This document shows positions 19,352 through 25,940 of a stretch of DNA of 46,094 nucleotides, piece by piece. Within the stretch, counting starts at the first letter, position 1, and the number at the start of each line of letters is the position of its first letter. The DNA is from a virus, in IMG/VR virus record IMGVR_UViG_3300034683_000017, positions 1 to 46,094 of that record; one strand, written 5' to 3'. Made by a program: the position numbers and the translations under genes. The notes below the pieces were generated by a model. The model saw nothing but the letters and a program-made list of their open reading frames with translations, made no database searches and was not told where the DNA came from.

Positions 19352-19939
19352 TTACTTGTTTAACAACGGTAAAACTAACTTTTCCGCTTCCTGAATGTAC
19401 CAGTCGTAATTCAGTGCACCCCAGTCAAAGTCCTTAGCGTCGGCACATTCTGTCACCTTCCATCCTGCACACATACTTGTTTCGCGCACTGCATCGTGCT
19501 TGCTGCGACTCTTCGTGTGGATACGCTCATCCCACGGTGTACCAATGCTGTCGAGGTCTCCCGGTTGGCCGGTAATCTCACGCATTACTGCATTGTACAC
19601 GTCGTCTTTGACACCATTCTTGCGCTTCCATGTACCGGGTGTACCGGTTGGTGGTAACAGCTTAACCAGTGACCCACCATTACGTGAGATAAACACACGT
19701 GTGGTATTCTGCATCTCCTGTTCAGCGCCCCACTCAGGCCAACGCATGACCAGACGTGCCGAACGTGGTACTTTAGCGCGCAGCATAAAGTCAAACGGGT
19801 CACGGTGCTGAGTGATGAATGTGCGGATGTCCTCACCGTGTACGAGTGCTGCTTCGGCTGCTTTAGGTACTACCATCGCACTAGGGTCTTGGTGAAATTG
19901 ATAGTTGTATTCGTATGCTCCTTTGCGCTTAATTTTCAT
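19352..19939 (-). CDS. DNA polymerase, C-terminal fragment (thumb)
   Basis: This 195-aa ORF continues the polymerase gene beyond the HNH insertion. Its start, KIKRKGAYEYNYQFHQDPSA, followed by VVPKAAEAAL and DPFDFMLRAKVPRS, is what normally follows the motif C region in this family B group. It has its own SD (GGGAG, about 10 bases before ATG 19939), so it can be made as a separate polypeptide. The segment GTPWDERIH also occurs in the 25101-25940 protein. Needed for a full-length polymerase in trans or after splicing. Confidence 0.75.
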   Translation of the reverse strand: MKIKRKGAYEYNYQFHQDPSAMVVPKAAEAALVHGEDIRTFITQHRDPFDFMLRAKVPRSARLVMRWPEWGAEQEMQNTTRVFISRNGGSLVKLLPPTGTPGTWKRKNGVKDDVYNAVMREITGQPGDLDSIGTPWDERIHTKSRSKHDAVRETSMCAGWKVTECADAKDFDWGALNYDWYIQEAEKLVLPLLNK

Positions 19940-20474
19940 ATTTCCATGACTCCCGCTTTGCGTGATTGGGGTGATAATTTAAATCGCGCTCAGCTTGCTT
20001 GCGAACGGCGATTGCCTCATTCTTATCTCTGAATGTGCCCAAGTGATAACGAACCCCTTCATGCGATATACGTACTAACCATCCCGCACCATTTCTTGTA
20101 ACACCTCTGCACCCGGAGGTGTTATCTTTGCGTTCACCCTGATTTCTAGCATTCTCAAAAGCCGTAACAAGACGTAAATTTTCCCAGCGGTTATCCTTTC
20201 GATTACCATTGATATGGTCAATTTCACCATTCGGATGTTCACCTGTCATATATAACCACACGAGGCGATGTACGAGAAACATCAACCCAAAACAATTCGT
20301 CCAGTAATAGCCCCTATTATTACAGTCCCTTATTGGCGAATATATTGATTTGGGTTTACCATAACTATCGTATCTCTTTATTCTTGCGAATTCCCCAGTC
20401 GTGGAATTATAAGTGAAATGTTCTTTTAATAACTCCAGAGACATTTCTTCTCTGCATTTCAATTTCCACATCAT
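19929..20474 (-). CDS. HNH homing endonuclease with AP2-like domain
   Basis: This 181-aa protein has an HNH core (VHRLVWLYMTGEHPNG, EIDHINGNRKDNRWENLR), then an AP2-like DNA-binding domain (SGCRGVTRNGAGWLVRI, HLGTFRDKNEAI). This pair is typical of self-spreading phage endonucleases. It lies exactly between the two polymerase pieces, and its last codons overlap the start of the second. It should cut polymerase genes that lack the insertion. Confidence 0.88.
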   Translation of the reverse strand: MMWKLKCREEMSLELLKEHFTYNSTTGEFARIKRYDSYGKPKSIYSPIRDCNNRGYYWTNCFGLMFLVHRLVWLYMTGEHPNGEIDHINGNRKDNRWENLRLVTAFENARNQGERKDNTSGCRGVTRNGAGWLVRISHEGVRYHLGTFRDKNEAIAVRKQAERDLNYHPNHAKRESWKYEN

Positions 20475-20529
20475 TGTCTCATACCGTTGCGATTTGTTTA
20501 TACCATCCTAAATTTTCTTTTGTCCGATG

Positions 20530-22053
20530 TCAACCAATGGTCATTATGTAATTGTTCACATCACGCTGATAAAGAGATTTTACTTCGTCCGTCTCAAGTC
20601 CCAACATTGTGTCTTTCTCCCATTCCGCACAAATAGATTCAACTAACGAATCATATTGTTCGGGGTAGTACATGACAGCCCCGTCAGTATTCGATTGCGG
20701 AATAATCATGTCTGGAACTCGCGTTATCAATCTATCAATCAACATTGCTAAACAAAGTTGTCCCGTAATAGTGATACTCAGAAGACACCTGTGGTCGCAG
20801 AATGGGCTGAATTTACTCCCCATGTTTCCGAAGGTGCCGTTGAGGGCGAGTTTCAATGCAGCATCAACTGTTTTATCTCCCGCTCGCTTAGCATCACGGC
20901 GACGAATGAACAGTTGTTCATATACATCACAAAAAGTTTCACTAAGGTGTTCCGGATAGTACCTGTTCTTTATACTAATGGACGGGTACATGCTTGTAAC
21001 ATCTTTATTTTTCAATAACTTACCATTGCCGGAATGCACAATGTAGTTCGGAATACTACTGTGAATACCTCCCAATCCGAACGAATATTCGACACCATCG
21101 ACCATGACGGTCATATCACTAAACACACCTTTTGTGGTCAGTAATTCGTCCTGCTGTTTCTTCGTGAGTACAACCCCACGAATGCGTTCCAGAATTTGAT
21201 TGAACTCCGGTCGTTCGAATTTGATATAGGGAGGTATGCAATCCGCGAGAGCGATACGTTCGCGAATGGTTACTCCCGAGCAATCCACTCCGGCCTTTTC
21301 CAGTTCGTGAACAAATATGTCTTTACCAATTTTAGTGTCGGCATGGTTCATAAAGTTACGACCGTATTGCTTTGTCAGTTCCTCACGGAAATGAATTTTG
21401 TCGAGTGAACGCACAAAGAATTTCAGCGTCTCTCGCACGTCGTGTTTGTTATAATCGATGAGAATGTCTTTCTGCTGGTCGTTTAGCACCATTCCGACCG
21501 GGAATGGCAGGTCTTTTACGTTAGGGGACTGCATACCCACTTCTAACGCCTTCAGACTGGTACGTCGGGCTTTATTATCGAAGTGATGAATTTTGTACAG
21601 GTCAATCTGCTCGAAAATCTGGTCGCGGTCCCATATAATTTCCGGCCACTGACCTTCGGGTTTAATCTGCGATTGTGCTTTTGTGTAAATCTGCTCCAGT
21701 GTACAACCCGGCGCGTTAACCACGTAGTGCAACACCGGATAGTCAAACGCCAGGTTATTAAATCCGATGCCACGGGCTTTACTGCGTCCCAGGTTGAATA
21801 CGAAGTCAATCAGTTGAGACTGTTCGTTTTTGCGGTCACTGATTTCGAAGACTAACTCTATACCAGTCGCAGCGTGAATAAATGAGGCGGTGAAGATGTT
21901 CTTGTACGTCTCTAAATCGTATCCCCAGTCACGCGGGTCCAGTGGTGCAATGCTGGAGAACGCCGAATCAGCCCCACAGTGGGGGCAATTGTGGAGGTCA
22001 GCGGGATATGTTTTACCGCAAGTTGCATCCTCGCATTTTGATAAATAGTGCAT
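20530..22053 (-). CDS. DNA polymerase family B, N-terminal fragment
   Basis: This 507-aa protein has an N-terminal Zn-finger-like pair (CEDATCGK, CPHCG), 3'-5' exonuclease motifs (YDLETY, GFNNLAFDYP, YNKHD) and polymerase motifs A (DVTSMYPS), B (KLALNGTFGNMGSKFS) and C (SNTDG). It stops soon after RDVNNYIM, where the chain normally goes on into the thumb. The missing end is encoded at 19352-19939 after an HNH gene. SD GAGG is 7 bases before ATG. It replicates the phage genome with the primase-helicase. Confidence 0.9.
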   Translation of the reverse strand: MHYLSKCEDATCGKTYPADLHNCPHCGADSAFSSIAPLDPRDWGYDLETYKNIFTASFIHAATGIELVFEISDRKNEQSQLIDFVFNLGRSKARGIGFNNLAFDYPVLHYVVNAPGCTLEQIYTKAQSQIKPEGQWPEIIWDRDQIFEQIDLYKIHHFDNKARRTSLKALEVGMQSPNVKDLPFPVGMVLNDQQKDILIDYNKHDVRETLKFFVRSLDKIHFREELTKQYGRNFMNHADTKIGKDIFVHELEKAGVDCSGVTIRERIALADCIPPYIKFERPEFNQILERIRGVVLTKKQQDELLTTKGVFSDMTVMVDGVEYSFGLGGIHSSIPNYIVHSGNGKLLKNKDVTSMYPSISIKNRYYPEHLSETFCDVYEQLFIRRRDAKRAGDKTVDAALKLALNGTFGNMGSKFSPFCDHRCLLSITITGQLCLAMLIDRLITRVPDMIIPQSNTDGAVMYYPEQYDSLVESICAEWEKDTMLGLETDEVKSLYQRDVNNYIMTIG

Positions 22054-25100: not shown

Positions 25101-25940
25101 TTACTCACCTAAATGCGCTTTAACACGTGCCACGAACGGACCGATTTTATCCGGGTGGGCGTTCAGTTCCTGCACCGACGACATACCGTCCTGCGCCAGC
25201 AGTGTGTTCACAGTTGCCACATCAATCTTACCGTGACGCTCGGTCAGGAAGGTCATGAGGCGCGGGAAGTCCCACTCGGTTACAGGCGGTGCAACAACTA
25301 CCGGTGGCGGTACAGGAATCGGTGGAATACCCGCAACGGTTTGCTCGGTTACCACATCGGTATCAGTGTGGAAATCATCACCTGGTGGTGTTACAGGTGG
25401 TTCACCAATTTCCACGGGTTCCAGGGCTTCAACTTCTTCGTCTGTCATCACTGGTGTTTGAGTATGTAATTCGCCCTTAACAGACTCAACCAGTGCCGCC
25501 CACTCCTCCTCATTCATATCCTTCGGCTTACGACGCAGACGCCACGTACCGTCCGCATTGAGCGCTTTACTGGTGGAGTGGATACGCTCGTCCCACGGTG
25601 TGCCGGTTGAGTCGGTGGTGGGCGGTGTTTGCTCTTCATTGTCACCCATTGGTACAGCCAACGACTCAACCTGTTGAGCGGTCGTGTCGATTTCCGGCTC
25701 TGTCATCAATAGCTCTTCTGTGGCGGCGCGCAAGCGCTCCAGCGCTTCGGTCGCGTCAATGTGGGACAGCAGAGTATCGCGGTCACGCTCGGCGGGTAAA
25801 AGTTTGGTCAGATGAGTGATGAAAGGTGTCACATCGACCGGGTAACCGTCTTTTTCGCTGGCAATTTCGATAAGTGCTTTACCAAATGCACGCAGCGCAA
25901 TGTGGTCGTCGTTCGGGATGGTTAAGGTAATACTGCTCAT
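25101..25940 (-). CDS. Early protein of unknown function with Pro-rich middle
   Basis: A 279-aa protein. Residues 40-66 (VTPFITHLTKLLPAERDRD) nearly repeat residues of the phage primase-helicase, and the DNA is also similar, so this is a copied patch. Next comes GTPWDERIHSTSK with ADGTWRLRRKP, a motif common in phage proteins and also in the polymerase tail here. After an acidic, Pro-rich linker, a small helical domain closes the protein (WDFPRLMTFLTERHGKIDV). Role unknown; perhaps part of the replication complex. Confidence 0.65.
   Translation of the reverse strand: MSSITLTIPNDDHIALRAFGKALIEIASEKDGYPVDVTPFITHLTKLLPAERDRDTLLSHIDATEALERLRAATEELLMTEPEIDTTAQQVESLAVPMGDNEEQTPPTTDSTGTPWDERIHSTSKALNADGTWRLRRKPKDMNEEEWAALVESVKGELHTQTPVMTDEEVEALEPVEIGEPPVTPPGDDFHTDTDVVTEQTVAGIPPIPVPPPVVVAPPVTEWDFPRLMTFLTERHGKIDVATVNTLLAQDGMSSVQELNAHPDKIGPFVARVKAHLGE

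Follow-up and report, generated by a model that had tools for sequence, protein, structure and literature searches.

Does a family B DNA polymerase gene whose reading frame is broken by an HNH endonuclease gene still specify one working polymerase and, if so, are its two parts rejoined by splicing or used as separate polypeptides? This question was addressed in the 46,094 bases of an IMG/VR virus record that make up the whole stretch analysed, hereafter the window. The reading argued for below, which is considered highly probable from comparison of sequences, is that a free-standing homing endonuclease gene took up a recurrent docking site and left a functional polymerase encoded by genes in pieces.

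Organization of the split polymerase locus

Genes for a major head protein, tail sheath, terminase, portal, primase, helicase and a gp2.5-like protein were found in the window and, together with the best DNA matches, lead to its placement in Jedunavirus; judged from this gene content, it is a Jedunavirus-like phage. Hosts of Jedunavirus are mostly Klebsiella, and no match to the window was found in E. coli genomes. The features of the locus were as follows:

20530..22053, minus strand: PolN, the N-terminal part of a family B DNA polymerase, with zinc ribbon, 3'-5' exonuclease, palm, fingers, motifs A-C and hairpin strand 1 (phrog_1252; unsplit relatives)
20475..20529, minus strand: non-coding leader of 55 nt from the PolN stop to the HNH start, the sole non-coding part of the insert, unstructured
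19929..20474, minus strand: HNH endonuclease gene, 181 aa, a probable free-standing homing endonuclease with an AP2-like C-terminal half (PF13392, phrog_99; AP2 by way of a homologue)
19929..19939, minus strand: overlap of 11 nt between the HNH stop and the PolC start, ATGAAAATTAA, the stop lying within the first PolC codons
19950..19954, minus strand: GGGAG, Shine-Dalgarno-like sequence for PolC within the HNH gene (predicted pairing -6.9 kcal/mol)
19352..19939, minus strand: PolC, the C-terminal part of the polymerase, 195 aa, with hairpin strand 2 and the thumb (phrog_15833, phrog_1252)
19940..21240, approximate boundaries, minus strand: putative co-conversion tract comprising the 3' end of PolN and the HNH gene, delimited by identity to KpVB3

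This layout agrees with a first-pass annotation made from the sequence alone, which had described the same three ORFs, with the first ending just past RDVNNYIM, about 55 bases on one side of the nuclease gene, none on the other, and a Shine-Dalgarno sequence belonging to the second part. PolN (507 aa) was found to end in RDVNNYIMTIG, the 55 nt lay on the PolN side, and PolC began with MKIKRKGAYEY. The overlap of the HNH gene with the PolC start was the same or similar in most other split loci, and the order PolN, HNH or other nuclease, PolC recurred in 20 or more isolate phages, indicating that the split in the window is no chance effect.

The two ORFs are the front and back of one polymerase

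PolN matched positions 24-505 of the phrog_1252 profile (E 3e-163) and PolC matched positions 512-651 of the same profile (E 9.6e-35) as well as phrog_15833 (E 1.7e-88); together they cover the N-terminal and C-terminal portions of a single polymerase family. In unsplit relatives, the two matched parts were 18-27 nt apart and were read continuously, and a single polymerase ORF was present in phages KpV52, ZCEC13, C1, AAM22, VLCpiM12a, PEAT2 and SBP, the junction reading RDVNNYI-QVGTDGK-IKRKGAYEY or similar. The majority of 80 IMG/VR relatives were also unsplit, with a loop of variable length at the junction. With exonuclease and polymerase motifs present and a matching fold (see below), the proposal of a family B DNA polymerase in two ORFs was borne out, and what is a single gene in unsplit phages is divided in the window into two ORFs that flank an ORF for a homing-type nuclease.

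An alignment to uninterrupted polymerases, suggested earlier as a check for lost residues, showed that essential residues were not lost. Of 76 positions at which 44 unsplit polymerases are invariant, PolN and PolC together retained 75. The remaining one, E441, is D in the window, a replacement common to related split alleles; several distant split alleles retained all 76. About one residue of the turn or loop was missing at the break.

Three further observations were made in these comparisons. PolC (19352-19939) was about 87-93% identical to its counterpart in the unsplit KpV52-like phages L003, L019, L024 and L025, their PolN about 57%, and identity to these phages rose abruptly at the junction, from about 42% to 90%, which makes it a boundary between mosaic segments in comparisons with unsplit alleles as well. 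A phrog_11133 protein (E 8e-99) was encoded at 25101-25940 on the minus strand, and residues 123-148 of PolC weakly matched the same family (E 0.002). The record PQ569648.1 (Klebsiella phage P12620-1), with 106,503 bases, is about twice the size of a Jedunavirus genome and had two matching places; it may be a double assembly.

The break lies in the turn of a beta-hairpin

An AlphaFold2 model of the unsplit relative L033 (714 aa, 44 sequences; pLDDT 90, pTM 0.84) located the break in the turn at residues 507-510 of a beta-hairpin, between strands 501-506 and 511-514. The break region was aligned by profile search to KOD polymerase at KKKYAVIDEEGKITTRG and KKKYAVIDEEGKITTRGLE, and the fold of the model matched that of family B polymerases, with Z 16.0 and an rmsd of 6.3 A across 475 residues for KOD 8s84. 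In family B enzymes this hairpin is at the palm/thumb border, which assigns the thumb to PolC and the exonuclease, palm and fingers to PolN. When PolC was folded alone, its first 18 residues were disordered and the remainder was predicted with confidence, as expected if the first strand of PolC needs PolN as its partner. From these models we infer that PolN and PolC assemble with one hairpin strand contributed by each.

Unrelated nucleases occupy the same turn

The protein encoded between the two parts possessed a known nuclease domain, HNH_3 (PF13392; E 1.5e-18), and matched phrog_99 (E 8.5e-53). Its earlier label, HNH-AP2, stood for the HNH half; the AP2 half is reasonable on indirect grounds, the Pfam AP2 domain being not scored in the window protein and seen only in the 33%-identical HNH homologue that occupies the same site in BUCT_49532.

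Some 30 further phages or contigs had a split in the same turn, the most distant with about 43% identity in PolN. It was occupied in at least 22 non-redundant isolate records among the best matches, in Edwardsiella phage PVN06, and in 10 IMG/VR contigs (L030, L034, L036, L050, L059, L072, L073, L083, L092 and L131). HNH genes of type A were found in the window, KpVB3, L030, L083 and PVN06, and the second HNH with AP2 in BUCT_49532. GIY-YIG/T5orf172 occupants with zinc-finger repeats were of three kinds (15-38, KpV79 and JD001 groups), and Seg/I-TevI-like GIY-YIG occupants were present in KpTRp1, L050, L059, L072, L092 and L131. HNH and GIY-YIG are unrelated folds. On a PolN tree built without the junction residues, parsimony required at least 8 changes between split and unsplit states and at least 15 changes of occupant type, counts that serve only as a guide to the number of events because the tree was built rapidly and contains some long branches, and because parsimony is blind to gain versus loss. 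As related phages are split at exactly the same loop, repeatedly and by unrelated nucleases, the polymerase appears able to work in two pieces.

Variation was also observed within the occupants. The zinc-finger GIY-YIG nuclease contained one, two or three NTEEWIEKARAVHGDKYDYS repeats (L006, L008, L009, L011, L012, L022, L023), and in L007, L008, L014 and L015 two different zinc-finger GIY-YIG nucleases had nearly the same last 35 or so residues, FVNAGLSGFDGCTEWLKWDNRILEMLEATREN, as if recombination had occurred inside the nuclease gene.

A more speculative proposal, put forward tentatively, is that this one beta-turn is a convergent docking site for which unrelated nucleases compete, and that the split, once made, is locked. 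The nuclease might then not be simply lost, because PolC needs translation through the nuclease ORF. No split allele lacking a nuclease ORF was seen, which counts in favour of such locking, as does phage RCIP0033 (L013, 3521-4673), in which a frameshift breaks the nuclease into two overlapping ORFs while the run of overlapping ORFs from PolN to PolC is unbroken.

A tract of apparently exchanged sequence ends at the junction

Relative to unsplit ZCEC13, the window shared 90.6% identity over PolN residues 1-265, 65.5% over residues 270-505 and 86.5% over PolC, with synonymous differences of 0.36, 0.79 and 0.43 before, in and after the tract, respectively. Relative to KpVB3, which carries the same HNH gene, identities before, in and after the tract were 89.4%, 97.9% and 83.9%, and synonymous differences were 0.43, 0.08 and 0.47. 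The block of high identity to KpVB3 began near 21240, took in the HNH gene and ended abruptly at the junction, near 19940; identity was 93-100%, mostly 97-100%, in the tract versus about 82-90% in the upstream and 68-95% in the downstream flank. Only over aa 270-508 did the window resemble split L030 over unsplit ZCEC13, and this resemblance ended at the junction (507; permutation p 0.0005). On these sequence comparisons the tract looks like co-conversion left by homing, the footprint of a free-standing homing endonuclease, although the footprint is no proof that the HNH gene of the window caused it. Compensatory adaptation of split alleles was considered as the source of the divergent aa 270-507 and is unlikely, because synonymous divergence jumps as well. 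The window and BUCT_49532 shared a polN flank of 95-100% identity and carried different HNH genes, suggesting that the occupant was exchanged on one background, although the shared flank could also have moved by other recombination.

The polymerase could be split as proposed and the tract moved by ordinary homologous recombination, with the HNH gene an inert passenger. These phages are mosaic, and the polN tract is common to alleles with different nucleases, as such an origin would predict; it is nevertheless rather unlikely, given that the tract boundary coincides with the junction, that occupants turn over at one exact site, and that purifying selection acts on the nuclease genes (in type C, for example, dN is about 0.02 and dS 0.2-0.4).

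Selection on both parts and a predicted ribosome-binding site for PolC

Median omega in split Jedunavirus was 0.090 for PolN and 0.098 for PolC. The corresponding parts gave 0.050 and 0.090 in the KpV52 group, which is unsplit, and 0.171 and 0.125 in a further group of unsplit alleles. As estimated from these genes, both PolN and PolC are under purifying selection, with omega within the range of unsplit alleles.

The predicted pairing of the PolC Shine-Dalgarno sequence in the window may be set against a background with a median of -2.8 and a tenth percentile of -6.3 kcal/mol; pairing reached -9.3 in several relatives and was weaker (-3.5 to -4.4) in distant contigs. Aeh1 mobE is reported to have a regulatory hairpin over its start; a counterpart at the HNH gene of the window was rejected, the leader being less structured than shuffled sequence (z +1.5).

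It is very improbable that the insertion broke the polymerase and left a decaying pseudogene, with replication done by something else. Stops do interrupt the reading frame, and the phage has genes for a primase and a helicase as well, but selection on both parts is strong (omega about 0.09), the invariant residues are retained at 75 of 76 positions, the splits extend across many lineages, and the PolC start codon is kept in every split locus.

The interruption contains neither intron nor intein

A search of Rfam, which had been among the checks proposed in the first-pass annotation, covered 25 split loci, the window and 24 others, and found no intron; the single match, to Arrc14 (E 1), was discarded because it scored well under its cut-off and lay elsewhere than in the insert. 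The inserts were almost wholly coding. Most split relatives had zero non-coding bases at the insert, with an ATGA overlap of PolN stop and nuclease start and a further overlap of nuclease stop and PolC start; the earlier remark that little room was left for a group I intron core holds both for them and for the 55 nt of the window. HNH and GIY-YIG genes are often borne by introns, including those of phage polymerase genes (I-HmuI, I-BasI; cited in PMC2988022, PMC10580990). A group I or other self-splicing intron that carries the HNH ORF and is spliced out to restore one polymerase is nonetheless scarcely probable here, in view of the missing Rfam matches and non-coding sequence, the unrelated ORFs found at one site without a common non-coding core, and the start codon and Shine-Dalgarno sequence that PolC has of its own.

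As for intein blocks at the end of PolN and the start of PolC, no extra residues were present at either terminus: PolN ended 5 residues past NNY, and PolC started 2-3 residues before KRKGAY. Joining of the parts during or after translation, by a split intein as in a phage polymerase with split inteins flanking a nuclease (MIJ3, PMC6892783) or by programmed frameshifts across the HNH gene, for which overlapping ORFs can provide sites, can hardly be credited, as the termini have no residues to house intein blocks and the nuclease and PolC are in different frames, requiring more than one frame change. As far as the sequences show, the polymerase is interrupted without an intron or intein.

Proposed origin and working of the split

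The reading that we favour, a homing endonuclease gene within a polymerase working in pieces, would run as follows. The nuclease gene lies in the tip of the beta-hairpin at the palm/thumb border and would have turned one gene into two; as the sequence shows, the insert supplies the PolN stop as well as the start and ribosome-binding site of PolC. PolN and PolC would be translated from one message, partly by coupling across the overlapping stop and start codons, and would assemble without a covalent link, each giving one strand of the hairpin, into a working replicative polymerase. In mixed infections, the HNH protein would cut or nick unsplit or differently occupied alleles near the turn, and repair would copy the nuclease gene and its flank into the alleles that had been cut.

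Comparison with known systems

A split PolB is known in archaeal Methanothermobacter. Among phages, the first-pass annotation had likened the locus to nrdA of Aeromonas phage Aeh1, which is split by mobE into two polypeptides that work together (PMC2988022). The likeness is apt in the mode of working, both being cases of a free-standing HNH homing gene in an essential gene of nucleotide metabolism without an intron (PMC2988022); however, the host gene is another one and a single insertion was reported, whereas the Jedunavirus turn has been used repeatedly by several nuclease families.

A closer parallel is gene 43 of Aeromonas phage 25 (43A/43B; NC_008208), also a polymerase gene, in which the halves of a family B enzyme flank a homing nuclease, seg-like in that phage, and whose two products, 43A and 43B, reportedly purify together with polymerase activity (PMC2988022). 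In phage 44RR, an untranslated spacer stands in place of the nuclease (PMC2988022). An identical split site was ruled out, the phage 25 break being at the position of RB69 residue 511 and that of the window in the hairpin at the thumb start; phage 25 43B also has an annotated intron.

T4 topoisomerase gene 60 with mobA likewise combines a homing nuclease with an essential gene encoded in parts (PMC2988022), but at another site in another gene. Pseudomonas phage MIJ3 encodes PolB as two ORFs with an HNH gene between them, and intein sequences are reported to rejoin the protein (PMC6892783), whereas none were found in the window. The OM43 phages MEP401/402, with several relatives, have the DNA polymerase as two genes with a small ORF between, of unknown kind and by a mechanism that the authors left open (PMC10580990); likened by description alone, this split polymerase may be related in kind to that of the window.

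Significance

The principle is already known from Aeh1 nrdA and phage 25 gene 43, and homing-nuclease genes in pieces have previously been a few single cases. No paper naming the Jedunavirus polymerase split, a hot spot or the turnover of nucleases was found in a literature search that covered few subscription journals. In dozens of phages, a replicative polymerase bears the same cut in one structural turn, a cut that unrelated nucleases have made or occupy, and unsplit close relatives provide natural controls. The split also carries a warning for annotation, since each half is often entered as a separate or hypothetical protein. With a recurrent split and unsplit controls, three questions become testable: whether a replicative polymerase can work as two unlinked parts, why some protein turns suffer repeated invasion, and whether a selfish gene becomes locked into an essential one through translational coupling.
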